A model generated the notes under the pieces. The model was not told the origin of the DNA. It saw only the letters and a program-made list of their open reading frames with translations, and searched no databases. A program made the position numbers and the translations under genes. A DNA stretch of 38,472 nt from Gammaproteobacteria bacterium (GTDB lineage: Bacteria; Pseudomonadota; Gammaproteobacteria; JAPPPA01): the NCBI GenBank assembly GCA_030425645.1, contig JAUHZK010000014.1, positions 1 through 38,472 on the forward strand, given 5' to 3'. Positions 19,452 to 35,394 of this stretch are shown piece by piece. Numbering within the stretch: the first letter of the stretch is position 1; every line of letters begins with the position of its first letter.

Positions 19452-21689
19452 TTATTTACTGGTGTGCGTGAATACACCATCCCAGTCTTGTCCCGGTGGG
19501 TTCGCCTCAAATACGCTTATTCGCTCAAGGTAAGTCGAATAAACCAAGCGCTCTTCAAACTCGCTCACTAGCCGGCTGATGGTGGCGCGCGCTTGCGCCC
19601 AGTCTTGAGCTCGGTACGCCTCTAGCGCCTCAACCCACGCTGCCAGTTCCTCCCGCTCGCTTGCCGACACGTCCTCGACTTTTGCCACGGGCTCGTAAAT
19701 GCGCACCGGCTCCTGCTTGCCTTTTACGCGTACTGAATCTAACTCTCGATATTCAAACTGCGGCGCGGCAACGGCAGTGTATTCACTCACAATAAATTGC
19801 ACGCCATATTGCTTGGTGAGCCCTTCTAAACGCGAACCGAGATTTACCGTATCGCCTAACACGGTGTAGGCCATGCGGAACTCAGAACCCATGTTGCCAA
19901 CATTCATAGGGCCGGAATTAGCACCTACCCCAATTTTAATTTCTGGCCACCCTTTGCTTTTAAAGTGGGGCTGCAAGGCGTCTAGGGCTTCAATCATTTT
20001 TAAGCCGGCCACCACACTGTGATAGGCGTGCTCGTCGTCATGCAACGGCGCGCCCCAAAAAGCCATCACCGCATCACCCATGTATTTGTCGATAGTGCCG
20101 CGATTTTCGTGAATAACACGAGTAATCGGGGTCAGAAACTCGTTCATTAGCTGTGTCAGTTCTACTGGGTCAAGCCCTTCTGAAATGGTAGTAAAGCTCC
20201 TGACGTCTGAAAACAGCACCGACATCTCTCGGTTTTCGCCTTCCAAACTAACTTCTTCCTCTGAGTTATTCAGATCAGCCACTAACTCTTCAGGAATGTA
20301 TTGCCCAAACACCTTAGACAAATGTCGCTTTTTACGAGATTCAACGGCGTAAGAGTACGCAAACTGCAACAAAAACAAACTGATAGCCAAACCAATACTG
20401 GCGGCCACCGGAATATTCAAGTCATGCGCCTGCCAGCCGTATAAGCCAGCGTAAAAAATCAGCACGACCAACCCCACCAAGCCGCTAACGCCCAATGCCG
20501 CTGGTAGCAAACTCAATAAACTAATAATGCCCGCAATCAGAATTAGCACGACGAGTTCAACGCCCTGCATATATTGGGGGCTACTTTTGAGGCCGCCGTT
20601 CATAATGCCGTGTACAAGATTCGCGTGAATCTCCACCCCAACAAATCTCGCCCCCACCGGCGTCGCTCGCAGATCTAATAACCCTGGCGCACTGGTACCA
20701 ATGAGCACCACGCTATCAAATAAAGTTTCAATATCCGCAGTGCCATTTAGAACATCCACAACGGAAACGTAGGGGAATGCACCAGACCGCCCTTGGTAAG
20801 GCACTAGAGCATTTAGCTGGCCATCGACAGGGATAAAGCGCTCACCTAGCTGCAACCCTTCTAAGTTCAGATCATCCAGCGGTGCACCTTCCGGGTTTGC
20901 AAATACAAACTGTAATGCAGGACTGCCCAACGCGAGGCGAGCCACAGAAAGCGCCAACGAGCTATAAACGTCTCCTTGATATGCCTGCATTAAAGGCACA
21001 CGTCGAAAAATACCGTCGCGATCCACATTCGGGTTACTGAAAAACCCTGCCCGTTCGGCCGCAAACATGTGCATATCATAAGGGGCCACAAATCCAGCCC
21101 CTTCGGCAAATGGCAATGCCAGCTCGCCTAGTTGATCTTTGCCGTATAGAGGCTCTGGCAACATACCCGCCCCTACCGGCTCATCTGGCGCTAAGCGGTC
21201 TTTAAATACGTAACCCAGCACCACATTTCGGCCGATTAACGACCCTGCGAAAGTTTCGTCGGTGTTCCAGCGCTCACGAGCCGAGGCCAATACCGTGGTT
21301 TCTTGGGCGGAAAGCTCAAGCTGCCCTTCCAAGTCATCTAACAAGATGAGCGCTGAAGCCTCATAGGGTTCAGCAAACACAATATCGAAGCCCACCGTGT
21401 TCACGCCGTAATCATCAAACAGACTATCGACCATCTTCGCGAGCACGTCGCGGGACCACGGCCAGTGGCCTAGCTCGGCAATGCTTTTTTCGTCAATATC
21501 AACAATCACCACCGAACGTGGCTTTTCGTCAGGCAAAGCCATGCGCAAGCGCGCGTCGTAAAGGTAACGCTCTACCTGCGCCACCATTTCCAAGCGCCAC
21601 TCGCCCTTGACGTGCATAAAAAACACAGCGGTAACAGCAATAGCAATAGCTAACCGAAATATCAGACCCTTGAGGCGTTTTAGTTGCAC
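19452..21689 (-). CDS. CHASE2-domain membrane adenylate/guanylate cyclase
   Basis: This 745-aa class III nucleotide cyclase turns ATP (or GTP) into a cyclic nucleotide. Order: N-terminal membrane helix (about 9-27), extracytoplasmic CHASE2 sensor (about 30-350; VVIVDIDEKSIAELGHWPWSRD), three close membrane helices (about 370-450), and the cyclase domain (about 485-665). Catalytic features are intact: metal Asp in LFSDVRSF and GDAVMAFWG, Lys in IDKYMGD, and the NLGSRLEG Asn/Arg pair. The start is GTG at 21689 with a weak GAGAA ribosome site; a later ATG would remove the first helix. It heads the minus-strand unit with the TPR/barrel, FecR and giant lipoprotein genes, and is divergent (131 bp) from the cytochrome operon. 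The signal sensed is unknown, and the choice of ATP or GTP cannot be settled from motifs alone. Confidence 0.93.
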   Translation of the reverse strand: MQLKRLKGLIFRLAIAIAVTAVFFMHVKGEWRLEMVAQVERYLYDARLRMALPDEKPRSVVIVDIDEKSIAELGHWPWSRDVLAKMVDSLFDDYGVNTVGFDIVFAEPYEASALILLDDLEGQLELSAQETTVLASARERWNTDETFAGSLIGRNVVLGYVFKDRLAPDEPVGAGMLPEPLYGKDQLGELALPFAEGAGFVAPYDMHMFAAERAGFFSNPNVDRDGIFRRVPLMQAYQGDVYSSLALSVARLALGSPALQFVFANPEGAPLDDLNLEGLQLGERFIPVDGQLNALVPYQGRSGAFPYVSVVDVLNGTADIETLFDSVVLIGTSAPGLLDLRATPVGARFVGVEIHANLVHGIMNGGLKSSPQYMQGVELVVLILIAGIISLLSLLPAALGVSGLVGLVVLIFYAGLYGWQAHDLNIPVAASIGLAISLFLLQFAYSYAVESRKKRHLSKVFGQYIPEELVADLNNSEEEVSLEGENREMSVLFSDVRSFTTISEGLDPVELTQLMNEFLTPITRVIHENRGTIDKYMGDAVMAFWGAPLHDDEHAYHSVVAGLKMIEALDALQPHFKSKGWPEIKIGVGANSGPMNVGNMGSEFRMAYTVLGDTVNLGSRLEGLTKQYGVQFIVSEYTAVAAPQFEYRELDSVRVKGKQEPVRIYEPVAKVEDVSASEREELAAWVEALEAYRAQDWAQARATISRLVSEFEERLVYSTYLERISVFEANPPGQDWDGVFTHTSK

Positions 21690-21820: not shown

Positions 21821-22684
21821 ATGCATCAATCAACCCTTCGATACAAAAAAGCACGCTGGCTTAAACTCGCCACGCTGCTGGTTGTCGGTTCTATCACTGC
21901 TTACGCGTGGCACTCGCCCCAACCCGTTGCAAATGGCGGCACTTGGCTTGGGTACACGCTAGGCACCATCGGTGCACTTTTAATTGTGTGGTTGGCTTGG
22001 TTTGGCATCCGCAAGCGGAGCTACAAAAACCCGCGCGGTACCGTACAAGGCTGGCTTTCCGCACACGTTTACTTAGGTTCTGCCTTAATCATCGTTGGCA
22101 CCCTACACACCGGCTTCCAATTCGCTTGGAACTTACACACCCTTGCCTACGTTTTAATGTGCCTAGTGATTGTCAGCGGCTTCTGGGGCATTGTGGTCTA
22201 CGTACGTTACCCAACCGAACTCAGCAGCAACCGGCAAAATAAAACCCAATCTGAGCTGCTCGCGCAATTGGAAGACGCCGACCGACAGGTTGTCACCGCC
22301 ACGCAAAAATTAGACACCTCTTTGCGGGATGCCGCAGATAGCAGCATTGAATTAACCTCGCTAGGTGGTTCTGCCTTCCGACAACTGAGAAAACGCGACT
22401 TTTCCACAGTAGTAATCGACGGCAAGGAACAAGCGAACCCCAACCAACGGGCGGTTATTTCTCACTTTGCAGCCCTCATGGGCAGCAACGACGCCAATCT
22501 TAACGCTTCGTTGCGAACCGCCATTGAGGCACTCAACCGTCGGAGCGAACTACTAGAGCGAATCCGGAAAGATATACGTATTCGTGCAATGTTGGACATT
22601 TGGCTGATGCTGCATATTCCTGCAACCATTGCACTTATCACCGCACTCACCGCACATGTTGTGGTGGTATTTCTGTACTGGTAA
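21821..22684 (+). CDS. Membrane protein with two bis-His sites, probable di-haem cytochrome b
   Basis: The 287-aa product has about five membrane helices (roughly 14-30, 41-62, 79-98, 105-128, 259-285). Between the last two lies a cytoplasmic, coiled-coil-prone segment (130-258), placed inside by the positive-inside rule. Two helices each carry a pair of His exactly 14 residues apart: His82/His96 in the third and His265/His279 in the fifth. This is the classic spacing for two haem b groups stacked across the membrane in b-type cytochromes. I infer a di-haem quinol- or electron-carrying cytochrome b. It opens a nine-gene operon rich in cytochromes c; the next gene starts 5 bp after its stop. 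The family was not recognised by name. Confidence 0.82.
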   Translation: MHQSTLRYKKARWLKLATLLVVGSITAYAWHSPQPVANGGTWLGYTLGTIGALLIVWLAWFGIRKRSYKNPRGTVQGWLSAHVYLGSALIIVGTLHTGFQFAWNLHTLAYVLMCLVIVSGFWGIVVYVRYPTELSSNRQNKTQSELLAQLEDADRQVVTATQKLDTSLRDAADSSIELTSLGGSAFRQLRKRDFSTVVIDGKEQANPNQRAVISHFAALMGSNDANLNASLRTAIEALNRRSELLERIRKDIRIRAMLDIWLMLHIPATIALITALTAHVVVVFLYW

Positions 22685-22689
22685 GCATC

Positions 22690-24366
22690 GTGATTTTTCA
22701 GATAAAACGATTCAGAAAAACCGCAGATGAAACCATCGCAGACGGCGAAGTTTCACTAGACCAAAACACCCTCACCCTTGGCGCTAGCAACGAGCAAAAC
22801 GTTATTATTGAGTGGCCGGGAGTGCGTTTGCGCCATGCAGAGCTGTACCTGTCCAATGGCGAACTACGCGTTCGCGCAACGACTGATGCTGGCGTCAAGA
22901 TCAACAACAAAACCGTTACCGATACGGCACTAAAACAGAACGACAAAATTTTGCTGGGCAACCACCAGCTTGCGGTTAGCCAGTCAAATGACAGTGTTAC
23001 GGTAGAAGTCACCGTTGACGAAACCCTAACAGCACCATCTCAACCCCTTTATAAAACAAGACTGGCCCACACCGGCTTTTCAAAACGCAAATGGTCTTGG
23101 ATGTTTTTGCTGTTAATTGGCTCCGTATTTTTTGCCGCGCCATATATCAGCCGATACGCCGACATACCACCAACAACCACTGAATATTTACCGACTGACA
23201 GACTTTGGAACACCGGTAGCTTTCACCCTGCGCACCAGTTTTTTGCGAATGACTGTAGCCAATGCCACCAAACACCGTTTCAGCAAGTACAAAACAGCGC
23301 TTGTATGGCTTGTCACCAAGAAATGGGCGCGCACGCACCAGCCACGGAGTTCCCACAAGCTGAACTACAAGAAGCCGCTTGTTTAAGCTGCCACAAAGAA
23401 CACAACGGCAGCAACGAACTGGTGACGTCAGACAAACAACTCTGCGTAAGTTGCCACGCTAACATCGAAAGCTTTACACACGGCACAACCACCCAAGAAA
23501 CCATTACCGACTGGGAGTTCAGTCACCCGGAAATCAGCCTAAAAATGGCCAAATGGGACGCTATTGGCAAAGACTGGCAATGGTCGCAACAACCAGCCTC
23601 TGATCCTGGCCCAGAGCTCAGTGGCATTATCTTCCCGCACGATGTACACCTACGCCCAGAAGGCTTTGGTGATGACTATGGCAATACAAAAGTATTGGAG
23701 TGCAGCGACTGCCACCAGCCAGAAGCGGGCGGCAAGCTGATGCAGCCAATTAATATGGAACAGCATTGCCAAAGCTGTCACCGCTTAGATTTTGATATCG
23801 ACCAACCTGAACTGTTTGTACGCCATGGCAACGTGGCCGCCACCCTGCGTGATATCGCAGGGCAAAAAGGCTTAGACGCACTGAAACCAGCGCTTGAAAC
23901 GCCGCCACCTGAATTAGCCGAACCAACCCTGCTCCGACCTGGCAAAAGTCGTGAATACAAACAACAAGAATTCACGTTGGTGCAACTGGCTGGAGAACTG
24001 ATTGAAAAACGCGGCTGCATTGGTTGCCACGGAGTTAGTCGTAACGACCAAGCCATTGAGAGTGGCGACCTCATCAATGGCTGGCAAATCAATCCCGTTC
24101 ATATCAATCGTCAGTGGATTGATTTGGCCGAATTTGATCACAGCGGCCACAAATCCATCGACTGCGTAAGCTGCCACACCGGCGCACATGATTCAGACAA
24201 GGCTTCAGACGTACTGATTCCAGCCAGAGAAAACTGCAGCAGCTGCCACGGTAACCCCGGCAACTCTGAACTGACGGACTCGCAATGCATTGACTGCCAT
24301 AGCTACCATTTGCCGCAGCACGGCTGGCTACCAAACCCAGACGATGAGAAGGCGGAACATCCATAA
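22690..24366 (+). CDS. FHA-domain, membrane-anchored decahaem cytochrome c
   Basis: This 558-aa protein has a cytoplasmic FHA-like domain (about 20-98; LTLGASN, VRLRHAELYL, INNKTV, NDKILLGNHQLAV), one membrane helix (about 136-152, MFLLLIGSVFFAA) and a periplasmic domain with ten CxxCH haem sites. In order these are CSQCH, CMACH, CLSCH, CVSCH, CSDCH, CQSCH, CIGCH, CVSCH, CSSCH and CIDCH. The FHA residues that hold phosphothreonine are not typical: GA stands for GR and Arg for the usual Ser before RH, so phosphopeptide binding is doubtful. The start is taken as GTG 22690, just after the previous stop; upstream codons overlap the cytochrome b gene and an internal ATG would delete the FHA domain. 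It probably receives electrons from the cytochrome b protein and passes them to periplasmic haems. Confidence 0.9.
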   Translation: MIFQIKRFRKTADETIADGEVSLDQNTLTLGASNEQNVIIEWPGVRLRHAELYLSNGELRVRATTDAGVKINNKTVTDTALKQNDKILLGNHQLAVSQSNDSVTVEVTVDETLTAPSQPLYKTRLAHTGFSKRKWSWMFLLLIGSVFFAAPYISRYADIPPTTTEYLPTDRLWNTGSFHPAHQFFANDCSQCHQTPFQQVQNSACMACHQEMGAHAPATEFPQAELQEAACLSCHKEHNGSNELVTSDKQLCVSCHANIESFTHGTTTQETITDWEFSHPEISLKMAKWDAIGKDWQWSQQPASDPGPELSGIIFPHDVHLRPEGFGDDYGNTKVLECSDCHQPEAGGKLMQPINMEQHCQSCHRLDFDIDQPELFVRHGNVAATLRDIAGQKGLDALKPALETPPPELAEPTLLRPGKSREYKQQEFTLVQLAGELIEKRGCIGCHGVSRNDQAIESGDLINGWQINPVHINRQWIDLAEFDHSGHKSIDCVSCHTGAHDSDKASDVLIPARENCSSCHGNPGNSELTDSQCIDCHSYHLPQHGWLPNPDDEKAEHP

Positions 24367-26342
24367 TGGCTTTACGTCAGCTCATCGGTGCCGCTATCGT
24401 TTCTGCCAGCATTGCTGCCTGTAGCACCGGCGGCGGTGGCGACCAAAGCGGATGCAGCGGCCACTGCTCTACTGACACGCCGCAGTTCCTATCGGTAGCC
24501 GACGTAAACCGCGTCATCTCTCAAGCCGTAGAAGAGGCCAAAGCCCGCAGCGCGGCCGGCACAATCGCGGTTACAGACCGCGTGGGGAACGTGCTGGCTG
24601 TGTATGAAATGAATGGCGCAGACGATACCGCCACGGTTACTAGTGAGCCGCTAGACTCAAATACGGGGGCGCGTAGCAACCAAGGGCTCGAAGGTCTCGC
24701 TTTTATACCCAGCAGCATGGCCGCCATTTCTAAAGCCGTCACTGCAGCTTTTCTTAGTACCGAAGGCAATGCGTTTACCACCCGCACCGCGAATCAGATC
24801 GTCCAAGAACATTTTAATCCCGGAGAAACAGACCAACCTGCTGGACCTTTGTTTGGGGTTCAATTCTCGCAACTGCCCTGTTCAGATTTCAGCAAACGTT
24901 TTTTAGACACTGACAACACTGGCCCCAAACGCTCACCGCTAGGATTGTCGGCCGACCCCGGCGGCATTCCACTCTACAAAAGCGGCGTCCCTGTCGGAGG
25001 TATTGGTGTGATTGCCGATGGCATTTACGGTATCGACAAAAACATTCTCGATAGAGATAGCGATCTAGATGAAATCATCGCCCTAGCCGGCAGCTTCGGC
25101 TTTGAAGCGCCCACCAACCGACGCGCAGATCGTATTACCGCTGACGGCAAAGTACTGCGCTTTACCGACGCCACCAATAGAGACCTAGTGAGCGCCCCTG
25201 CTTCTGCCCCTGCGTTACCAGCAGGAGGGGGGCCAATTTCTGTAAACGGCTATTTCAATGGCGCCTTTCTTGCCGGCACAGCGTTTGGGCAGGCCGATTC
25301 CGGAGTTCGCCTCTCTACAGCCGCAGACTTCCCCGGTGACCCCAATGCGGCAGACTTCGTTTCAGCAAACAGCTTTATCGTAGTGGATGGCACAGACAGC
25401 AACCGTTACCCGCCCATCGCTGGAGCAGGCGGTTTAACGGCCGCAGAAACCTCGGAACTTCTAAAGCAGGCTCTGGATATTGCCAACCGGGCTCGCGGAC
25501 AAATTCGCCGCCCGCTAGGCACACCAGCTAGAGTGTCAATTACTGTGGTCGACGTTGACGGCACCATACTAGGGCAAGTCCGCGGGCGCGATGCGCCGAT
25601 ATTTGGCCTAGATGTCTCACTGCAAAAAGCGCGTACGGCAGCGTTCTTTTCTAGCGCTGCTGCAGCCTCGGTAATCGACAAACTTCCGGATGTCACATAT
25701 CTAAATCCCGATGCTACGGCAGGCCGCACCATCGACATGAGTGACTACACCACAGCGGTACAAAACTTTCTGGGCGACCCAGCCGCGCTCACGAACGGCG
25801 CCTTCGCGTTTGCAGACCGCTCAGGAGGAAATCTATCTAGACCGTATTTCCCCGATGGTATCGTTGGCAACCCGCATGGGCCTCTTAGCAAACCGTTTAG
25901 CGCAGGTGACGATCTGTGGAGCGTCTTTTCATCTGGATTTCAACTAGACCTCGCCTTTAACGGCATAGCTGGTCATGTTGTATTCGTATTAGGAGGTGGT
26001 CCAGACCCAGCTAAGGGTTGCGCTGGCATTGGAGCCCCTGCTGACCCCGATTTCAAGCGCATGGCGAACGGTAGTCAAATTTTCCCGGGGTCCGTACCCA
26101 TTTATAAAGGCAATACTCTAGTCGGCGCCATCGGCGTCTCTGGTGACGGCGTTGACCAGGACGACATGATCGCCTTTCTTGGAGTACACAACGCTGGCGA
26201 GGCCATTGGTGGCATTAACAATGCGCCGAAAGGCATTCGGGCAGATCAACTAGTGCCACAAGGCACGCGCTTACGCTACATCAACTGCCCACAGGCACCG
26301 TTTATCGACAGTAATGAGGAGGACGTTTGCAATGGCAAATAG
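24366..26342 (+). CDS. Lipoprotein with two GlcG/HbpS-type (haem-binding-like) domains
   Basis: The 658-aa product has a lipobox (IAAC, Cys19) and a Gly/Cys-containing linker (GDQSGCSGHC). Two GlcG/HbpS-like domains follow: the first about 40-250 (VNRVISQAVEEAKA, TVxDRVGNVLAVYE-type, GGIPLYKSGVPVGGIGV) and the second about 365-645 (LLKQALDIANRARG, VVDVDGTILGQVRG, GSVPIYKGNTLVGAIGVSGDG). HbpS of this fold binds haem and iron outside the cell; many other members have unknown ligands. Its place among cytochrome genes suggests haem handling, but the sequence does not prove haem binding. It starts at a TAATG junction with the decahaem gene and overlaps the next gene by 11 bp. The two domains carry inserts, making it far longer than single-domain members (about 140-170 aa). 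Confidence 0.83.
   Translation: MALRQLIGAAIVSASIAACSTGGGGDQSGCSGHCSTDTPQFLSVADVNRVISQAVEEAKARSAAGTIAVTDRVGNVLAVYEMNGADDTATVTSEPLDSNTGARSNQGLEGLAFIPSSMAAISKAVTAAFLSTEGNAFTTRTANQIVQEHFNPGETDQPAGPLFGVQFSQLPCSDFSKRFLDTDNTGPKRSPLGLSADPGGIPLYKSGVPVGGIGVIADGIYGIDKNILDRDSDLDEIIALAGSFGFEAPTNRRADRITADGKVLRFTDATNRDLVSAPASAPALPAGGGPISVNGYFNGAFLAGTAFGQADSGVRLSTAADFPGDPNAADFVSANSFIVVDGTDSNRYPPIAGAGGLTAAETSELLKQALDIANRARGQIRRPLGTPARVSITVVDVDGTILGQVRGRDAPIFGLDVSLQKARTAAFFSSAAAASVIDKLPDVTYLNPDATAGRTIDMSDYTTAVQNFLGDPAALTNGAFAFADRSGGNLSRPYFPDGIVGNPHGPLSKPFSAGDDLWSVFSSGFQLDLAFNGIAGHVVFVLGGGPDPAKGCAGIGAPADPDFKRMANGSQIFPGSVPIYKGNTLVGAIGVSGDGVDQDDMIAFLGVHNAGEAIGGINNAPKGIRADQLVPQGTRLRYINCPQAPFIDSNEEDVCNGK
26316..26322 (+). 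promoter_or_regulatory. Ribosome binding site fixing the start of the barrel gene
   Basis: GAGGAGG lies 9 nt before ATG 26332. It overlaps the other possible start (ATG 26314), which it therefore cannot serve, so 26332 is the likely start. Confidence 0.75.
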
Positions 26343-28089
26343 ACTTCTCAGACTCGCCTTGCTAACAGCCATTTTCGGTAGCGCTTATGCCGAGCCAAGC
26401 ACTAACTGCGCACCTAGTAATGCTGAAAGTTTACAGCGTCCAGGCGTTCCCACATTACGCTGGGACGAAGACGACTGCGCAGACTTTAACGAAGACGATA
26501 AACGCGAAATTGAGGCGCTCTCAGACGCCATTTTGGTGCCAGACCGCTGGCGTATTGTCAGCGCCCTCGGCTATCCAGAAAACCTGTTAGACCCCTACAA
26601 CAATAACAACTGGCTCAAGGGTGATCGGCCTGTGTTTGGCGAAGATTGGTTTGTGAACTTAATTGGCATTGCCGACCTCATATACGAGCCACGTAACTTC
26701 CCTATTCCCGTAGGTAACGCCACCACCCAAAGCGCTGGCGACCTAAACTTGATTGGTGAAGGCGACACCACCGTTATTGCCGGCAATCTGATTCTTGAAG
26801 GCGTGGTCTACAAAGGCAACACCACGTTCAAACCACCCGATTACGAATTCCGGCTGACGCCGGTCATCAACTACAACATCTTAGATGCGAATGAGCGCGC
26901 GGTGACGCGGGCAGACCCTAACGAGGGAACACACCGTACTGACAACCATGTTGGCGTGCAGGCGGCGTTTGTTGACTACCACATTCGCAACGTTTCTGAC
27001 CGGTATGATTTCGACTCTATTCGCGTTGGAATTCAGCCGTTTAACGCAGACTTTAGAGGCTTTTTATTCAACGACCAGCAATTTGGTGTGCGCCTTTTTG
27101 GGATTCGTGACAACAACAAGATTCAATACAACTTGGCTTGGTTTCGCCGTATAGAAAAAGACACCAACAGCGGCCTAAACGACCTTAGCCAAGGTCTGCG
27201 AGACGATGACGTATTTGCCATTAATGCGTACTGGCAAGACTGGCCTTCATTGGGTTACTTTTCGCAGTTGTCACTCGTGCACAACCGAAATCGCGAAGCC
27301 GACCAAACCCTGTTTGACAACAACGGCTTTATTGCCCGCCCTGCCTCGCTGGGAGTCGAGGTGCCGCGCGATTATGACGTCACCTACCTTGGCTATAACG
27401 GCGACGGCCACTTTGACAGGCTAAATATCACGGTGTCGGCTTATTACGCGTTTGGCGATGAAAGCCAAGGCACCTTTACCAATGACCCCAGCGATATCTC
27501 TGCCTACTTTTTAGCGGCCGAACTGGGCTTTGACCAAGACTGGGTACGTTGGCGCTTTTCGTTCCTACACGCGTCAGGCGACGATGACCCGTTCGACAAT
27601 GACGCCAAGGGCTTTGACGCAATCTTTGAAAACCCACTATTTGCAGGTGCGGATACCAGCTATTGGATACGCCAAACCGTGCCGCTGATTGGCGGTGGCC
27701 GCGTCACGCTATCTGGCCGTAACGGCATTTTGAACAGCCTGCGCTCGTCTAAAGAACAAGGCCAATCAAACTTTACCAACCCCGGCATCACCTTGCTTGG
27801 GGTGGGCAATGATTTGGACGTCACCCCAACCACGCGGATTAGCTTCAACTTCAATCACCTTTGGTTTGCGGACACCACAGTGCTAGAGGCGGCCCGCAAT
27901 CAAGGTGAAATAGCCACAGACATTGGCTTTGATCTGTCGGTATCGGCTATTTATCGGCCGCTGGCCATGCAAAACATTGTTGGCCGCCTATCTGCGGCTT
28001 ATCTCATTCCTGGCGAAGGGTTTGAGGACTTATACGGCACTAAACAAGCGCCGTTTTCCATTCTTGCCAACCTAACCCTGACCTATTAG
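26332..28089 (+). CDS. Predicted outer-membrane beta-barrel (porin-like) of the cytochrome operon
   Basis: This 585-aa protein has a signal peptide (MANRLLRLALLTAIFGSAYA) and then a long run of alternating polar/hydrophobic strands with many aromatic and Asp/Asn turn residues (YEFRLTPVINYNI, KIQYNLAWFRRIE, LNITVSAYYAFGDE). It ends in LTLTY, a typical C-terminal barrel strand with terminal Tyr. It has no CxxCH. In known porin-cytochrome conduits (MtrCAB and similar) a barrel sheathes a multihaem cytochrome; this protein could do the same for one of the two cytochromes that follow. I see no clear MtrB/PioB signature, and an alginate-export/porin-like barrel is an alternative. Start chosen from the GAGGAGG site. 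The next gene begins 2 bp after its stop. Confidence 0.78.
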   Translation: MANRLLRLALLTAIFGSAYAEPSTNCAPSNAESLQRPGVPTLRWDEDDCADFNEDDKREIEALSDAILVPDRWRIVSALGYPENLLDPYNNNNWLKGDRPVFGEDWFVNLIGIADLIYEPRNFPIPVGNATTQSAGDLNLIGEGDTTVIAGNLILEGVVYKGNTTFKPPDYEFRLTPVINYNILDANERAVTRADPNEGTHRTDNHVGVQAAFVDYHIRNVSDRYDFDSIRVGIQPFNADFRGFLFNDQQFGVRLFGIRDNNKIQYNLAWFRRIEKDTNSGLNDLSQGLRDDDVFAINAYWQDWPSLGYFSQLSLVHNRNREADQTLFDNNGFIARPASLGVEVPRDYDVTYLGYNGDGHFDRLNITVSAYYAFGDESQGTFTNDPSDISAYFLAAELGFDQDWVRWRFSFLHASGDDDPFDNDAKGFDAIFENPLFAGADTSYWIRQTVPLIGGGRVTLSGRNGILNSLRSSKEQGQSNFTNPGITLLGVGNDLDVTPTTRISFNFNHLWFADTTVLEAARNQGEIATDIGFDLSVSAIYRPLAMQNIVGRLSAAYLIPGEGFEDLYGTKQAPFSILANLTLTY

Positions 28090-28091
28090 TT

Positions 28092-31000
28092 ATGCGAGCC
28101 GCCAACACTCTTCTCATCACGCTTAGCCTACTGCTGGTCACCCTAGCGGCAAACGCAGCCGGCGGCGGCTTAGGCACTCCACGCGACATTTCTTACCCGC
28201 ACTACCCAGCGGCGCCAGCCCAGCAAAACCCAGAAGATGCCGAGATAAAAAGCACCGGCTGCATGAGCTGCCATAGCCAGACCGACTCCTACAACATGCA
28301 CAGCAACGACGGCATTAACCTAGGCTGTACCGATTGCCACGGCGGCAACGCCGAGATATTTAAACCCCAAGGTTTTGCCGACAACGGCCGCGATGTTGGC
28401 GATGCACCTTCTCATGGCAAAAGCAGTCATTCTGAAGAAGACCACACCAAAGCAGGTCACGAAAAAGAAAAGGCGCACAAAAGCTACCCTGCCGAATACC
28501 AAGCAGCGCTAGACCAAGCCCACGTACAGCCTCTGTACCCAGACGCTTGGCACTACCCGTCTTCAGCCAATCCCGAGCGCACGTACACCCTACTGAATAA
28601 AGAAAGCCCGGAATTTGTTCGCTTTGTTAACCCATCAGACTACCGCGTCGCTCGGCAAGCTTGTGGAGCCTGCCACTTAGACATCATCAAAGCGTCAGAG
28701 CGCAGCCTTATGAGCAACGCGGCGATGTTTTGGGGCGCGGCAGCTTACAACAACGGCATTTTGCCATTTAAGCGGCCCATAATTGGTGAAGCGTATACGC
28801 CAGATGGCCAACCCGCTGCCCTAGAAGGTCGCCCAGCCGCTTCGCCTGAGATTGCTAAAAAACACAATATTATCGACCGCATTGCACCGTTACCGGCTTG
28901 GGAAACACTTAAGCCCGGCGACATCTTCCGGGTGTTTGAACGCGGCGGACGCAACATTACCAATCTATTTCCAGAAACCGGGATACCAAACGCGCTAGGC
29001 CTAATCCAACGCCTTGAAGAGCCAGGCCGCCCCGACTTTAAACAATCTAACCGCGGCCCTGGTACCGGCCAACGCATCTCTGTACCGGTGTTAAACATGA
29101 CCAAAACCCGACTCAACGACCCGATGAGCTGGTTTATGGGCACCAACGACCAACCAGGCGACTACCGCCATTCAGGCTGTGCAGGCTGCCACGTTATTTA
29201 CGCCAATGATCGCGACCAAAAGAACTCGGCCTGGTACGGGCAATACGGCCACGAAGGCAAAACCATTACAGTGGATCCCACCATTCCGAAGGACGAGCCG
29301 GGCCATCCACTGCAACATAAATTTACCCGTGCCATACCGTCGAGCCAGTGCATCGTTTGCCACATGCACCAGCCAAACATGTTTATTAACACCTATCTCG
29401 GCTACACCATGTGGGACTACGAGTCCGATGCCCCTTCCATGTGGCCGAAAGAACAGAAATACCCCACCGCTGCCGAGATGCACGAAACCTACGAGCGCAA
29501 CCCGGAGGGTGCAGCAGCTCGCGGCAAATGGTCTGACTTAGAATTCTTGAAAAATGTTTCTGAGTTAAACCCAGAACTCAACGACACCCAGTTTGCCGAC
29601 TACCACGGCCACGGCTGGAATTTCCGCGCCATTTTTAAACGCGACCGCGACGGCAACCTACTCACCAAAGACAACGACATTGTTGAGAACGACGATCCGG
29701 ACAAGTTCAAAAAAGGCGTCCATATGTCGTCTATCCACTTGGATGTTGGCATGCACTGCGTGGACTGCCACTACGCCCAAGATTCACATTCTGATGGTCA
29801 TATTTATGGCGAAGTGGCCGCCGCCGTCGAAATTGGCTGTATTGATTGCCACGGCACCGTCAGCGAATACCCAAATCTTAAAACGTCTGGCCCCGCAGGT
29901 CCTGGCCGCACGACCGACCTCAGCCTTATTCGCAATCCAGATGGGCAAAAGCGTTTTGAATGGGTAGGCGACAGCCTAATTCAACGCTCAGCAGTAACGC
30001 CCGGACTTGAATGGGAATTATCCCTAGTGAAAGACACCGTCAGCAAAGGCCACTCGCAGTACAACCAAGACGCAGCGCAAGCTAAGTTAATGTCTACCAA
30101 CACTCAAACCTTAGATTGGGGCTGGGAATACGTAGGCAAAGAATTAGCCCACGCCAATGAGGAGATGGAGTGCTACAGCTGCCACACCAGTTGGACCACC
30201 TCGTGCGGCGGCTGTCACCTACCAATTGAGGCCAACTGGAAAACCGAGCGCCACCACTACGAAGGCGGCGAAACGCGCAACTACGCTACTTACAATCCGC
30301 AAGTTGTGCGCGACCAAACCTTCATGCTCGGCAAGCACAGCACGGTAAAAGGCCACAAAGTCGCGCCAATTCGTTCAACCTCAGCATTGGTGTTGTCGTC
30401 GACCAACGCCAATCGGGAAAAGATTTACGTACAGCAGCCGCCGATCGCATCCAGTGGTTACAGCTCACAAGCCTTTAATCCACACTTCCCTCACACTGCG
30501 CGTAAAGAAGAAACCAAACGCTGCGACGACTGCCACTTGTCTGAAGAAAACGACAACAACGCCATCATGGCGCAAGTGCTCATGCACGGCACGCACTACT
30601 ACGATTTCTTGGGCTACCACGCTTACTTGGGTACAGAAGACGGTATCAGTGCCGTACAAGTGACCGAGTGGGACGAACCACAGGCCGTTATTGGCAGCTA
30701 TTTGCAAAAATACGCGTACCCCGACTTCTACCAACAACACCAAGACCGCCAGCAAGAACTCACCACTGCTTACCAGCATGACGGCGAAACCGTTGGTTGT
30801 TTGCAGCTTCGTGGCGAATACCTATTCGCTGCCGAAGGCAAAAAAGGCATGAACGTCTATGACGTTGCCAGCATCGCCAACAAAGGCATTAGTCAGCGAA
30901 TCATTAAAGCGCCGTTTTCAGAGCTTGGACACGACACGCAGTTAGAGAGCGAAAACGCCACTTGCCTATCGCTGTCCACCACTCAGCCTATTGCGCCTGA

Positions 31001-31991
31001 ACGCAATCAAGGCGACTTAATGCGCATTGAGAACGAGGAGCAACCGTTCCACCCTATTTATGACTATGCGCTGATCACCGATGCCGAAGAAGGCCTTATT
31101 CTTTCAGACATCAACACACTGGCAGACGGCGAGTTCCGCAATAACAAACTAAAACGCGCACTTACTTGGAACCCTGGTGGCTTATTAGATGGTGCGAAAC
31201 ACATCACCACTGCGGGGTACTACATCTACATCACCACTGACAAAGCCGTGGTAGTGCTCAACCTAAACGAGCCGCTAAAACCCAAGCTCGTAACCGTCTT
31301 GAGCATGAACAATCCGCGCGCCACCGCTTTGCAGTTCCGCTATCTGTTTGTTTCAGACGCCGAAGGTCTACGCGTGGTTGACGTCACCAACCCCGAATCA
31401 CCACAGATACTTAGCGACGTGCTCATCCCACTTAAAGACGCGCACAGAATTCACCTCGCCCGCACTTATGCTTACGTAGCGGCAGGCACGGAAGGTATTG
31501 CGGTGATAGATATTATTCAGCCAGACAAGCCTGTACTGAGCCGCAAATTCACTGCCGATGGTGCTATCAAAGATGCCCGCGACATTGTGGTAGCCAGCAC
31601 CAATGCCAGCTTATTTGCCTACGTAGCAGACGGCGAGCACGGCCTAAAAGTAATCCAGCTCACTGCGCCAGATACTCAACCAAACTTCTACGGCTTTAGT
31701 CCAGAACCGAAACCAGAACTCGTCGCTTGGCGTAAAACCCATTCGCCAGCGTTGGCGCTATCGCGTGGCTTAGAGCGAGACCGTGGCGCCGATGAAACAG
31801 GTGGTCAAGTGGCCGTATTCGGCCGCCTAGGTTCTCGTCCGTTTAACGAAGAAGAGATGAAAAAGCTGTATCTAGATGACGAAGGCAAGCCTTGGTACGT
31901 ACCTGCAACTGACGTCAACAAACGCCTACTAGAACAACGCAGCCAAGACCAACGCGATCGTGAAGCGAGTCGTAAGGAGTCCAAGCAATGA
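28092..31991 (+). CDS. Secreted decahaem cytochrome c with C-terminal LVIVD beta-propeller
   Basis: The 1299-aa product has a signal peptide (cleavage after ANA near residue 22) and ten CxxCH sites: CMSCH, CTDCH, CGACH, CAGCH, CIVCH, CVDCH, CIDCH, CYSCH, CGGCH, CDDCH. The C-terminal third (about 900-1230) contains about six LVIVD-type repeats, for example YLFVSDAEGLRVVDVTNPE, YAYVAAGTEGIAVIDI and FAYVADGEHGLKVIQL, which should close into a beta-propeller. A His/Lys/Glu-rich stretch lies near residues 112-135. It is probably periplasmic or outer-surface; the propeller may dock a partner or substrate. It overlaps the next cytochrome gene by an ATGA junction. The electron acceptor is unknown. 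Confidence 0.88.
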   Translation: MRAANTLLITLSLLLVTLAANAAGGGLGTPRDISYPHYPAAPAQQNPEDAEIKSTGCMSCHSQTDSYNMHSNDGINLGCTDCHGGNAEIFKPQGFADNGRDVGDAPSHGKSSHSEEDHTKAGHEKEKAHKSYPAEYQAALDQAHVQPLYPDAWHYPSSANPERTYTLLNKESPEFVRFVNPSDYRVARQACGACHLDIIKASERSLMSNAAMFWGAAAYNNGILPFKRPIIGEAYTPDGQPAALEGRPAASPEIAKKHNIIDRIAPLPAWETLKPGDIFRVFERGGRNITNLFPETGIPNALGLIQRLEEPGRPDFKQSNRGPGTGQRISVPVLNMTKTRLNDPMSWFMGTNDQPGDYRHSGCAGCHVIYANDRDQKNSAWYGQYGHEGKTITVDPTIPKDEPGHPLQHKFTRAIPSSQCIVCHMHQPNMFINTYLGYTMWDYESDAPSMWPKEQKYPTAAEMHETYERNPEGAAARGKWSDLEFLKNVSELNPELNDTQFADYHGHGWNFRAIFKRDRDGNLLTKDNDIVENDDPDKFKKGVHMSSIHLDVGMHCVDCHYAQDSHSDGHIYGEVAAAVEIGCIDCHGTVSEYPNLKTSGPAGPGRTTDLSLIRNPDGQKRFEWVGDSLIQRSAVTPGLEWELSLVKDTVSKGHSQYNQDAAQAKLMSTNTQTLDWGWEYVGKELAHANEEMECYSCHTSWTTSCGGCHLPIEANWKTERHHYEGGETRNYATYNPQVVRDQTFMLGKHSTVKGHKVAPIRSTSALVLSSTNANREKIYVQQPPIASSGYSSQAFNPHFPHTARKEETKRCDDCHLSEENDNNAIMAQVLMHGTHYYDFLGYHAYLGTEDGISAVQVTEWDEPQAVIGSYLQKYAYPDFYQQHQDRQQELTTAYQHDGETVGCLQLRGEYLFAAEGKKGMNVYDVASIANKGISQRIIKAPFSELGHDTQLESENATCLSLSTTQPIAPERNQGDLMRIENEEQPFHPIYDYALITDAEEGLILSDINTLADGEFRNNKLKRALTWNPGGLLDGAKHITTAGYYIYITTDKAVVVLNLNEPLKPKLVTVLSMNNPRATALQFRYLFVSDAEGLRVVDVTNPESPQILSDVLIPLKDAHRIHLARTYAYVAAGTEGIAVIDIIQPDKPVLSRKFTADGAIKDARDIVVASTNASLFAYVADGEHGLKVIQLTAPDTQPNFYGFSPEPKPELVAWRKTHSPALALSRGLERDRGADETGGQVAVFGRLGSRPFNEEEMKKLYLDDEGKPWYVPATDVNKRLLEQRSQDQRDREASRKESKQ

Positions 31992-33283
31992 ACACCATAA
32001 TTCGCCTAACGGCGGCTTTTACCTACGTGCTTTTACTGACCAGTGCTGCGCATGCACAACCGCTACCAGACCAAAGCAAACAGGAACATTTGGGTGTCGC
32101 TAGCTGTGCCTCTAGTACCTGCCACGGCTCTGTTAAGGCACTAGACAAAACCAGAGTATTGCAAAACGAATACGTGACTTGGTCTCGCCAAGACCCGCAC
32201 GCGCGCGCTATGCAAACGCTGCGCAATAACGACTCCCTAAAAATTGCCCAAAACCTAGGACTAAAAGAACCACCCCACCAGTCCGAAATGTGTACCGGCT
32301 GTCACTTAAGCAGTCCTCCTGAGTCAGCTCGCGGGCCTAAATTCACCCAAAACGACGGCATTGGCTGTGAGTCCTGTCATGGTGGTGCCGAAAACTGGCT
32401 AAAACCGCACACCCAGCGAAACCGCAGCCACCAAGACAATATTGCCGATGGTATGTACCCCACTGCCGACCCGGAAGCACGCGCAAGCTTGTGCTTGTCA
32501 TGCCACATGGGCAACAGCGACAAATTCACCACACATGAAATCATGGGTGCAGGACACCCACGGTTAAGTTTTGAGCTGCAAACCTTTACCGAACTGCAAC
32601 CCGTCCACTATCGAGTAGATGCCGATTACCTTACTCGCAAACCACATAACGCGCCTCTGAACACCTGGATGAGCGGTGTTTATGCCAACGCCATCAACTG
32701 GTTAGAACTAATCGCTTCAGATTGGGTAAGCCCAAACACCCTATTCCCTGAGCTAGCCGTGTTCGACTGCCAAGCGTGCCACCACCCAATGGGTGATAAA
32801 CGCTGGAAACCACGAGAAACCCGTGGGCTGCCACCGGGTACCGTACGCTTGGCCGACAGCCACTTGATGATGGCCTGGCTACTGACATCTGAGCTACAAC
32901 CCACCCAGAAGGCTGCCCTAAAAGATTGGTTACACCAACTGCACAAGGCTTCAACCGACTCTGTCCCAGCACTCAAGCAAACCGCTAAGGCCGGCATCGC
33001 TCAGCTAAAACAGCAGCAAACGCAACAGACACAAGCTAAACCTAGCCAAGCGCAATTACGCGAGTTATTGAACGCGATGGCCTCTGCTGGCAAAAAAGGT
33101 TGGTTTGACGATTACAACGCTGCAGAACAAGCCGCGTTTGGCATACAACTTGTATTGCGAAGTTTAAAGCCTCGGAGTTATGGCCGACTTTCAGCGCCGT
33201 TGTTTGATACGGTAAGCGACGAGGACAACTTTAAGCCTCGTCAATTTAAGCAAGCCCTCAACCAGCTTGTTAAGGAGATTTAG
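31988..33283 (+). CDS. Periplasmic five-haem cytochrome c (cytochrome c554-like)
   Basis: The 431-aa protein has a signal peptide (cleavage after AHA, about residue 23) and four CxxCH sites (CTGCH, CESCH, CLSCH, CQACH). Near its start there is a CASSTCH, a CX4CH haem site like those of some cytochromes c3 and c554-like proteins. The order GVASCASSTCHGS ... MCTGCH ... GCESCHGG ... LCLSCHMGN fits the cytochrome c554 family, whose best-known member accepts electrons from hydroxylamine oxidoreductase; no such enzyme is present here. The C-terminal third is helical and Gln-rich (KQQQTQQTQ). It overlaps the upstream decahaem gene by 4 bp, and its stop shares a base with the GTG of the sigma factor gene. 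Confidence 0.87.
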   Translation: MNTIIRLTAAFTYVLLLTSAAHAQPLPDQSKQEHLGVASCASSTCHGSVKALDKTRVLQNEYVTWSRQDPHARAMQTLRNNDSLKIAQNLGLKEPPHQSEMCTGCHLSSPPESARGPKFTQNDGIGCESCHGGAENWLKPHTQRNRSHQDNIADGMYPTADPEARASLCLSCHMGNSDKFTTHEIMGAGHPRLSFELQTFTELQPVHYRVDADYLTRKPHNAPLNTWMSGVYANAINWLELIASDWVSPNTLFPELAVFDCQACHHPMGDKRWKPRETRGLPPGTVRLADSHLMMAWLLTSELQPTQKAALKDWLHQLHKASTDSVPALKQTAKAGIAQLKQQQTQQTQAKPSQAQLRELLNAMASAGKKGWFDDYNAAEQAAFGIQLVLRSLKPRSYGRLSAPLFDTVSDEDNFKPRQFKQALNQLVKEI

Positions 33284-33825
33284 TGAGCCAAGCCCACTAC
33301 GTACCGGATCAAACCCTGCTGCTCGACCTTATTTCACGTTGCGCACTGAATGATCAACAAGCATTTCAAACCCTATACCAAGAAACATCAAGCGCTGTTC
33401 TGGGTTCGCTGATACGCCTACTGCCCAACCGCGATAGCGCCGAAGACTGCCTACAAGAAGCCTTTATTCAAGTGTGGAATAAGGCCGACCAGTATCACGA
33501 AGGTAAAGGTAGCGTGTTTGGCTGGATTATCACCATTGCCCGCTACCGCGCGATTGACTGCATCCGAAAAGAACGCCCCGCCGTAGAGTTAGAAAAGGCG
33601 GCGCCTTTTTTAGGGGAAACACCAGAACTAGGCGGCGACCATCGCCAACTACTGAAATGCCTAGAACAACTACCGGACCAAAGCGCAGACATGATTTTAC
33701 AAAGCTACATTGCGGGCTATACCCAGACCGAGCTCAGCGAGAGCACGGGTACGCCGCTGGGTACTGTAAAAAGCTGGATGCGCCGTGGCCTAGCTGCGTT
33801 AAAGAGTTGTTTAAAAAATGACTGA
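33283..33825 (+). CDS. ECF-type RNA polymerase sigma factor
   Basis: The 180-aa product has sigma region 2 (about 20-90; NRDSAEDCLQEAFIQVW and GSVFGWIITIARYRAIDCIRKER) and region 4 (about 118-175; LPDQSADMILQSYIAGYTQ, then helix-turn-helix GTPLGTVKSWMRRGLAAL). It lacks regions 1 and 3, as ECF factors do. The start is GTG at 33283 in a TAGTG junction with the cytochrome gene. The following gene overlaps it by 8 bp and encodes an RskA-like anti-sigma factor, so this is a SigK/RskA-type pair. It may direct transcription of its own operon, though no clear ECF-type promoter was found at 21690-21820. Confidence 0.94.
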   Translation: MSQAHYVPDQTLLLDLISRCALNDQQAFQTLYQETSSAVLGSLIRLLPNRDSAEDCLQEAFIQVWNKADQYHEGKGSVFGWIITIARYRAIDCIRKERPAVELEKAAPFLGETPELGGDHRQLLKCLEQLPDQSADMILQSYIAGYTQTELSESTGTPLGTVKSWMRRGLAALKSCLKND

Positions 33826-34582
33826 AACTAACAGCAGCATTTCCGATACCGAATTACTGGCCGCCGAATACGTGCTCGGGCAGCTTCGTGGCGAAGAGCG
33901 CATGGCAGCCAAAACACAAATGGTTACAGACGCCGAATTGCGCCACTGGGTTAACTGGTGGGAGCAACGGTTATTCTCATTGTCATTGCATCCAGAACCC
34001 GTTGAACCACGTAAACAGGTTTGGGAGCGCCTTTACGCCCGTTTGTTTTCACTCGCTGATGAAAACGATACCGAAACAAACGGAGAGCGCCGCAACACGA
34101 CAGCAAAACTTGGCAGCAATTGGGGGTTGAGCTGGTTTACTGCCGCGTTAGCTGGCTTCGCGCTGATGGCCATGACTGCCCTCACCACGATTTACGTTGA
34201 CGGTCAGCTGGTGCCATCACGCGAAGCGCCCACTCACTATGCGAGCTTGGAAAGTGGCGGAGTGATCAACCACATTATTGAGCGCTATGCCAATGGCGAC
34301 ATTGCCAGTATTGCGGTACACCCTTCCGTAGCCACTGACGAAAGAGTGTTAGAGCTATGGGCCATTGCCGGTGACGGCAAGCCTGTGTCACTGGGTTTAC
34401 TGCCAGCAAAAGGCAAGCAGTTGGTAAGCGCGCCAGCCAGCATAAAAAACTTAACCGGAAGCCTCACCTTGGCCGTGAGCGTAGAGCCGCATGGTGGCTC
34501 GCCTACCGGGCTGCCAACCGGCCCAGTAGTAAACAGCACAAAATTAGTAGAGCGAACCGCTACGGATAGCTTCAGCTTCTAA
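33818..34582 (+). CDS. RskA-like membrane anti-sigma factor
   Basis: This 254-aa protein has an N-terminal helical sigma-binding domain (about 1-80; LLAAEYVLGQLRGEERMAA and WVNWWEQRLFSLSLHPEPVEP, no zinc-binding HxxxCxxC). One membrane helix (about 100-122, WFTAALAGFALMAMTALTTI) and a periplasmic RskA C-terminal domain (about 140-245; VLELWAIAGDGKPVSLGLLP) follow. It should hold the ECF sigma factor at the inner membrane and release it on a signal. Its ATG overlaps the sigma gene by 8 bp, giving stoichiometric, coupled synthesis. The inducing signal is unknown; a redox cue is plausible given the neighbours. Confidence 0.9.
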   Translation: MTETNSSISDTELLAAEYVLGQLRGEERMAAKTQMVTDAELRHWVNWWEQRLFSLSLHPEPVEPRKQVWERLYARLFSLADENDTETNGERRNTTAKLGSNWGLSWFTAALAGFALMAMTALTTIYVDGQLVPSREAPTHYASLESGGVINHIIERYANGDIASIAVHPSVATDERVLELWAIAGDGKPVSLGLLPAKGKQLVSAPASIKNLTGSLTLAVSVEPHGGSPTGLPTGPVVNSTKLVERTATDSFSF

Positions 34583-34593
34583 CGGAAGGAAAA

Positions 34594-35394
34594 ATGGAAA
34601 CCTCTCGCGTACTGGAAATTTCCAGCAAACTCGACATCAGCGACATCGACTGGGATGCCGCCAAACAAGCCGGCATTACCGCTGAAGAAGAGTTTATTCT
34701 GACCTACTTCAGTGACATCGAAGCCCAAACCATCATGTACATGCGCGACCTGCTTCACACCAGTGCAATTGATGATCCGGGTGTGATTGGGTTTTTGTCT
34801 GCATGGAACTACGAAGAGTATTTTCACGGCGAAGCACTGGCGAAATTACTCGACGTTTGCGGCAACCCGCTAGAGAAGAACCGCATTGCCGAAGTACGCC
34901 GAAACGCTACCTTCGGAGAAAAGCTCTTGGCATGGGTAACCAGCAAGGTCTCTCGTTTACTCAATGACCGCTTTGTGACGCTGTACATGACGTGGGGCGC
35001 GGTACAAGAGTTCACTACGCACGCAGGCTATCAGCGCATTCGCGACACCACCAAAAACCCAGTGCTCGACGAAATTGTGAAGCGCATCATGAAACAAGAG
35101 CGCGTGCATTTTTCTTGGTACTACAACAACGCCAAAAAACGCCTAGAAGCCAACCCCAGCCACCAAAAACTGGTGCGTTTTATGTTGGAACGTTTCTGGA
35201 GCCCGGTCGGCGCAGGCGTCAAAACCGATGAGGAAGTTGCCAGACTGTTCACCGACCTCTTCGGCGAAGGTTACGGCGACAAACTAGTAACCGAAGTTGA
35301 CGACAAGATTGGCCAACTACCGGGCATGAACGGCATTCAAATTATGGGAAGCTGGTTTAGCGGCAACGTACAGCCGTTACTTGGCCGCGCTTAG
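34594..35394 (+). CDS. Ferritin-like di-iron protein related to acyl-ACP desaturases
   Basis: The 266-aa product shows the four-helix di-iron ligand pattern: Glu43 (SDIEAQT), Glu75 and His78 (EEYFH), Glu139 (VQEFTTH) and Glu169 with His172 (QERVH). This is the E, ExxH, E, ExxH arrangement of soluble fatty acyl-ACP desaturases and related ferritin-like oxidases. There is no signal peptide, so it acts in the cytoplasm. It lies 11 bp after the anti-sigma gene with a GGAAGGA ribosome site and is the last gene before a terminator, so it belongs to the cytochrome operon transcript. A role in lipid desaturation or in oxidative stress control is possible; the substrate is not known. Confidence 0.82.
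   Translation: METSRVLEISSKLDISDIDWDAAKQAGITAEEEFILTYFSDIEAQTIMYMRDLLHTSAIDDPGVIGFLSAWNYEEYFHGEALAKLLDVCGNPLEKNRIAEVRRNATFGEKLLAWVTSKVSRLLNDRFVTLYMTWGAVQEFTTHAGYQRIRDTTKNPVLDEIVKRIMKQERVHFSWYYNNAKKRLEANPSHQKLVRFMLERFWSPVGAGVKTDEEVARLFTDLFGEGYGDKLVTEVDDKIGQLPGMNGIQIMGSWFSGNVQPLLGRA

Follow-up and report, generated by a model that had tools for sequence, protein, structure and literature searches.

A conserved multihaem cytochrome locus of Proteobacteria that may connect cytoplasmic NADP(H) to the cell exterior

What is encoded by a run of closely packed multihaem cytochrome genes in a gammaproteobacterial genome, where does the unit begin and end, and between which partners would it move electrons? 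The window considered here, a stretch of 38,472 nucleotides (contig JAUHZK010000014.1), carries at positions 21821-35394 nine genes, g1 to g9, that the initial annotation took for an operon encoding a self-regulated transmembrane electron conduit. All nine reading frames lie on the forward strand where it had placed them, nearly gapless (junctions between the most plausible starts of +5, -1, -11, +2, -4, -1, -8 and +11 bp); the start of g2 is probably GTG 22690 rather than TTG 22600, and that of g4 probably ATG 26332. The boundaries of the unit are different: g1 to g6 belong to it, g7 to g9 do not, and a conserved first gene, c5, had been missed. The trans-envelope look of the system and its conservation as a unit stand; a regulator of its own does not. 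We read it, at a probability of about 0.45, as an electron conduit that spans the envelope and is linked to cytoplasmic NADP(H) through a di-haem cytochrome b resembling those of NADPH oxidases (NOX), and gated by cyclic nucleotides (cNMP).

The search for conserved synteny that the initial annotation had called for carries this reading. GTDB species genomes were scanned with g5, yielding 355 stretches that encode relatives, from which 80 loci were retained; since g5 was the sole criterion for choosing loci, conservation of the neighbors is an independent result. Of the named loci, 58 extend at least 9 kb upstream, and in 53 of these c5 and g1 to g5 are colinear on one strand; taken singly, g4 occurs in all 58, g3 in 56, and c5, g1 and g2 in 55 each, and g6 follows g5 in 60 of the 68 loci over which it was counted. 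The predicted 25 c-type haem sites are likewise found, as 24 CxxCH motifs and one Cx4CH motif (the first of g6, CASSTCH, which the total needs), and their division into 10, 10 and 5 over g2, g5 and g6 is almost invariant across homologues; because these counts hold, the motifs are far beyond chance.

The haem-protein set is, to judge from the genomes that carry it, common to many marine and soil Proteobacteria, its hosts as named in the records being Halieaceae, Alcanivorax, Marinobacter, Steroidobacter, Woeseiaceae, Zhongshania and alphaproteobacterial metagenome-assembled genomes. By tblastn, g5 is also found on 13 sphingomonad plasmid records (12 from Sphingobium, one from Sphingopyxis), next to genes annotated as cytochrome c family, heme-binding or hypothetical, and in Sphingobium also as cyclic nucleotide-binding. 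Occurrence of the barrel gene g4 is patchy, as it is seen in 12 of 398 sampled genomes of Pseudomonadota and in 13 of 369 from the window's class; all 12 of the former also have g1. In sphingomonad-like alphaproteobacteria the genes are split between c5-g1-g2 and g6-g3-g4-g5, two units that in some cases face opposite ways or lie far from each other. From three alphaproteobacterial-type genomes that carry c5-g1-g2, g5 is missing, so other partners can be served by the inner module.

In relatives, g1 is immediately preceded by a gene 50-60% identical to c5 (803 residues from ATG 6425), a likeness that identifies c5 as the operon's missing first gene; in the window c5 lies 13 kb upstream of g1, separated from it by opposite-strand genes for a 2251-residue protein, a FecR-domain protein, a TPR protein and a CHASE2 cyclase. 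Its two cNMP domains are of the PKA/PKG regulatory kind and match a pair like that of PKA-R in PDB profiles, and its [4Fe-4S] domain includes Pfam Fer4_11 (PF13247). Of 30 c5 proteins, 22 have a TrxR-like Arg motif linked to NADPH binding; the cNMP-binding Arg is present in 29 in the first cNMP domain and likewise in 29 in the second. In g1, the four haem-b ligand histidines noted before belong to two WX3HX13H motifs, kept in all 62 homologues (SGxxG in 60), which give it the two-helix HX13H pattern of NOX and ferric reductases (FRE). The third inner protein, g2, has 10 CxxCH motifs in 62 of 64 homologues and 10 further invariant histidines.

Direct exchange with NADP(H) is proposed because c5, with its flavin, NAD(P) and [4Fe-4S] domains, constantly adjoins the NOX/FRE-like g1. 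Five-transmembrane di-haem cytochromes b often react with quinones, and this, together with the porin and multihaem architecture, would also suit a respiratory export from the quinol pool, as in the anaerobic respiration of Mtr systems, with c5 merely regulatory. We regard this as very unlikely: c5 is a constant neighbor equipped for redox chemistry, many hosts (sphingomonads, Halieaceae) are known aerobes, and the genome at hand lacks a match to MtrB_PioB and encodes a haem-copper oxidase.

One recurrent genomic partner is in keeping with the link to NADP(H). Homologues of glutamate dehydrogenase (GDH) flank 15 of 100 conduit loci, a lower bound, as many of the flanks reach barely beyond c5. 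Eleven whole genomes could be assessed: in eight (G010, G139, G178, G352, G265, G310, G427 and G400) the sole strong GDH match is no more than about 4 kb from conduit genes, and in three (G404, G447 and G419) it lies elsewhere, two further genomes (G001 and G006) being too fragmented for the count. By chance, adjacency would be expected in well under 1% of loci from gene numbers alone. The association recurs in independent lineages of both gamma- and alphaproteobacteria, the enzyme is annotated as NADP-specific in Sphingopyxis, and GDH is probably co-transcribed with c5. Relatives of the CHASE2 cyclase stand beside conduit genes at three other loci (L036, L126 and L133) and the cyclase is duplicated together with the conduit; it may supply the cyclic nucleotide that c5 would sense. 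Genes with FecR domains precede c5 in five loci.

These considerations suggest the following route. NADPH, supplied with the help of the neighboring GDH, would pass electrons to the FAD and the [4Fe-4S] clusters of c5, switched by bound cyclic nucleotide; the two b haems of g1 would, in the manner of NADPH oxidases and ferric reductases, take them through the inner membrane to the decahaem cytochrome g2 and on to the periplasmic pentahaem cytochrome g6; and from there they would reach an outer-membrane module formed by the barrel g4, the decahaem and propeller protein g5 and the lipoprotein g3, to end on an extracellular acceptor, the purpose probably being to shed surplus reductant or to reduce an oxidant outside the cell. 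In this route we infer direction, NADPH preference, gating, the mode of crossing the outer membrane and the acceptor; export would be the energetically simplest course.

Unless energy is put in, Fe(II) and Mn(II) are ill suited to reducing NADP+, which counts against a chain that runs inward, oxidizing a donor outside the cell (Fe(II), Mn(II) or a cathode, for instance) and reducing quinone or NADP+. Uptake of this kind is unlikely also in view of the many hosts that are known heterotrophs and of a c5 with no recognisable quinone site; in its favor, some relatives are, going by their record titles (Biocath_Gamma_022, MnTg04), from biocathode or Mn-associated samples, and the inner half is homologous to that of PCC4, a porin-cytochrome system found in genomes of iron oxidizers (PMC5566968).

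On the periplasmic side, the four CxxCH motifs and one Cx4CH motif of g6 are invariant in 76 of 76 homologues, together with five further histidines. In both g2 and g6 the extra invariant histidines thus equal the haems in number, which fits bis-His electron-transfer wires rather than catalysis. The 10 CxxCH motifs of g5 are found in 90 of 90 homologues; its structure model has a predicted local distance difference test score (pLDDT) of 45.5, only the strands of the propeller coming out in it, and its match to ExtM is weak (56 bits against a cut-off of 800). Most of the gammaproteobacterial g3 homologues inspected carry a lipobox. The barrel proposed for g4 is borne out by a model of 18 strands (pLDDT 77.6), for which Foldseek ranks the alginate exporter AlgE first among PDB entries (E 3e-17) and other porins after it; MtrB is not among the 50 best.

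This fold, AlgE/Occ-type and not MtrB-like, would also suit a reductase in which the barrel admits a soluble oxidant, an oxyanion or other small molecule, and the cytochromes reduce it either within the periplasm or on the cell surface, without a wire through the outer membrane. The ExtM likeness of g5, distant as it is, agrees with this; in the Geobacter Ext cluster an extI mutant is defective in selenite and tellurite reduction and ExtI is proposed to admit these ions (PMC5877670). We give the reductase a low probability: no relative of ExtI, ExtO, ExtP or ExtQ is found, the ExtM score is far from its cut-off, and the haems of g2 and g6 display no obvious shortage of axial histidines of the kind that a catalytic haem might have.

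Several points weigh against the NADP(H)-linked conduit. An 18-strand AlgE-like barrel may, from its model, be too narrow for a multihaem wire, which makes the proposed crossing of the outer membrane hard to account for. The second cNMP domain of the window's own c5 lacks the key Arg (Q576), and the NADPH-type motif is not universal among c5 proteins. A phospho-switch through the FHA domain of g2 is doubtful because this domain is degenerate, its canonical phospho-binding residues not being conserved. Direction, finally, is not readable from the sequence, and He et al. drew PCC3 and PCC4 as uptake of electrons to quinone (PMC5566968).

The transcriptional switch that the initial annotation had assigned to the conduit is not supported as part of the system. 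An extracytoplasmic function (ECF) sigma factor (g7) and an anti-sigma factor (g8) were found beside the conduit in this genus only, as was g9, and all three were rejected as integral parts; the more general control element is probably the sensing of cyclic nucleotides by c5. The families themselves, ECF sigma for g7 and RskA-type anti-sigma for g8, as well as HbpS-like for g3, are backed by Pfam and NCBIfam (the NCBIfam anti-sigma match of g8 reaches 91 bits, with a cut-off of 100); the di-iron protein g9 is a ferritin-like candidate, called from a single match to FA_desaturase_2 below threshold.

A second copy of the locus in the same genome, overlooked so far like c5, the FHA-type domain of g2 and the LVIVD repeats of g5, bears this out. 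On contig C12 it comprises GDH, c5 (88% identical), the TPR and FecR genes, the cyclase, g1 to g6 (g5 84%), g9 and downstream genes, and lacks the 2251-residue gene, the ECF factor g7 and the anti-sigma factor g8; g9 is thus in both copies. Upstream of g1, a block around TTTGTTTGAAAGCATATG is common to both copies; a scan for sigma-70 promoters gave matches below shuffled expectation. As a whole, the duplication is segmental, relating window positions 4645-37176 to positions 22001-52000 of C12 in the host genome G000 (L097, L136) at roughly 42-91% protein identity, and it includes genes for DUF3307, SRPBCC-like and beta-lactamase-family proteins besides those of the locus (GDH, c5, TPR/FecR, CHASE2 cyclase, g1 to g6 and g9). 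Elsewhere, about one locus in three has genes for PP2C and FHA proteins after g6; in Halieaceae and relatives (L017 14961-23680 and similar loci) the genes downstream of g6 encode a PP2C phosphatase, a double-FHA protein, a Ser/Thr kinase and SEL1/caspase-like proteins. The features of the window are collected in Table 1.

Table 1. Genes of the predicted conduit and its surroundings in the window.
Feature	Position	Strand	Basis or remark
NADP-type glutamate dehydrogenase (GDH)	5029-6393	+	Pfam ELFV_dehydrog; recurrent genomic partner of the conduit
c5: YpdA/TrxR-like FAD/NAD(P), two cNMP-binding and DmsB/HycB-type [4Fe-4S] domains	6425-8836	+	Pfam and PDB profile matches
2251-residue protein	8833-15588	-	Absent from second copy of the region
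CHASE2 and adenylate/guanylate cyclase	19452-21689	-	Pfam CHASE2, Guanylate_cyc; divergent from g1
g1: predicted five-transmembrane di-haem cytochrome b, PCC3/PCC4-type inner-membrane protein	21821-22684	+	Motifs; no Pfam family
g2: predicted inner-membrane decahaem cytochrome, N-terminal cytoplasmic FHA-type domain	22690-24366	+	Pfam FHA, CXXCH
g3: lipoprotein with HbpS/GlcG-like domains	24366-26342	+	Pfam PF03928, three stretches
g4: predicted 18-strand outer-membrane barrel, AlgE-like fold	26332-28089	+	AlphaFold2, Foldseek
g5: exported ExtM-like decahaem domain and C-terminal LVIVD beta-propeller	28092-31991	+	Haem motifs, LVIVD Pfam
g6: periplasmic pentahaem c554-type cytochrome, 4 CxxCH and 1 Cx4CH	31988-33283	+	Pfam Cytochrome_C554
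g7: ECF sigma factor	33283-33825	+	Pfam/NCBIfam; lineage-specific addition
g8: RskA-type anti-sigma factor	33818-34582	+	Pfam RskA_C; lineage-specific addition
g9: ferritin-like di-iron protein	34594-35394	+	Sub-threshold FA_desaturase_2 match; lineage-specific addition

Known extracellular electron conduits serve mostly quinol respiration in anaerobes, or iron oxidation. The one described here is kept in cultured gammaproteobacteria (Marinobacter, Alcanivorax, Halieaceae, Steroidobacter) and in sphingomonads, plasmids included, and its constant first component joins NADP(H) to cyclic-nucleotide sensing; if the proposal is true, electron exchange with the outside would be common among aerobes and under regulation, and cultured hosts such as Sphingobium and Marinobacter put the conduit within reach of testing now. 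The fullest form of the proposal, in which a cNMP-gated flavo-iron-sulfur protein and a NOX-like cytochrome wire NADPH to the surface of presumed aerobes, functionally linked to the NADP-dependent GDH, in a widespread and undescribed system, is put forward only tentatively. Its groundwork is firmer, as gene content, colinearity, haem motifs, the predicted barrel fold and the homology of the inner half to PCC4 are established; from these the system is best described as a conserved variant of the predicted porin-cytochrome systems, apparently undescribed in the literature. No paper describing this gene set was found in a search that covered mostly open-access literature and few subscription papers, and which did find PCC3/PCC4 and ExtI.

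The initial annotation had set the locus apart from Mtr, Pcc, Cyc2 and Nrf alike; this holds for all but Pcc, to which the inner half is related through the predicted PCC4. Assignment to Mtr, Cyc2 or Nrf was rejected on families and barrel. With MtrCAB, PioAB and MtoAB the conduit shares the general plan of decahaem cytochromes and an outer-membrane barrel, but the MtrB barrel has about 26 strands and g4 has 18, Pfam finds no MtrB_PioB (PF11854) match in g4 or elsewhere in the genome, no protein of the conduit matches the DmsE/MtrA family over the cut-off, and the proposed input is NADP-linked. The likeness to NOX and FRE proteins lies in the two HX13H pairs, on helices 3 and 5, and in a cytoplasmic NAD(P)H-flavin donor; in the conduit, however, the flavoprotein is separate, with [4Fe-4S] and cNMP domains, and electrons would continue via c haems.

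The Geobacter Ext cluster (extHIJKLMNOPQS, linked to selenite and tellurite; PMC5877670) likewise combines a barrel with several multihaem cytochromes and a b-type cytochrome, and g5 is distantly ExtM-like, but no Rieske, rhodanese or selenoprotein partners stand beside the conduit. Membership was rejected, all matches being far below the equivalog cut-offs, and neither g1 nor g4 has an NCBIfam match to the ExtI porin or to ExtO, ExtP or ExtQ relatives. ExtM-like cytochromes with 11 haems, well below the ExtM cut-off, occur in varied contexts in other genomes of the class (L103 6879-9254, L102 7231-9669, L104 6808-9267 and L105 7563-9878); the first of these has an adjoining barrel gene, to whose product g4 has no detected homology.

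Closest are the porin-cytochrome systems PCC3 and PCC4 predicted by He et al. 2017 (PMC5566968). PCC3 has the same kind of inner-membrane protein, extracellular and periplasmic multihaem cytochromes and a porin; its cytochromes consist of low-complexity repeats with medians of 34 and 21 haems, whereas those of the conduit have 10, 10 and 5. A PCC3-like cluster in another genome of the phylum (L170 9193-14338) has 24- and 27-haem cytochromes beside a g1-like protein.

PCC4, itself known from prediction only, is defined by a five-transmembrane inner-membrane protein with two WX3HX13H motifs and SGxxG, preceded in subgroup II by a PF13247 (Fer4_11) iron-sulfur protein, and by three periplasmic multihaem cytochromes of 4, 5 and 10 haems, with no extracellular multihaem cytochrome (PMC5566968). 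The first feature is found in g1 and the second in c5, which adjoins g1 in relatives; decahaem and c554-type cytochromes and an outer-membrane barrel complete the likeness. Two loci of the phylum sample called PCC4-like from their gene content (L171 and L174) share the order c554 cytochrome, cNMP/[4Fe-4S] protein, inner-membrane protein, decahaem protein; over loci of this kind, these four parts have detectable homology to the conduit, matching its profiles at 51-66, 149-200, 46-71 and 25-62 bits, respectively. In L171 and L174 the flavoprotein is a separate FNR/2Fe-2S protein, whereas that of the conduit is TrxR-like and fused to the cNMP/[4Fe-4S] part; the haem set is 10/10/5 in the conduit and 10/5/4 in PCC4; g4 compared by hhalign with the presumed barrel of L171, as the one PCC4-like representative and with the sequences of He et al. 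outside the comparison, gives a probability of 0.3%; and the conduit has in addition the HbpS lipoprotein and the ExtM-like decahaem-propeller protein, g5, which is exported, bears a beta-propeller and may lie on either side of the outer membrane. By these comparisons, the conduit appears as a sister of PCC4 rather than a member by the published definition, its inner half being homologous and its outer half not.

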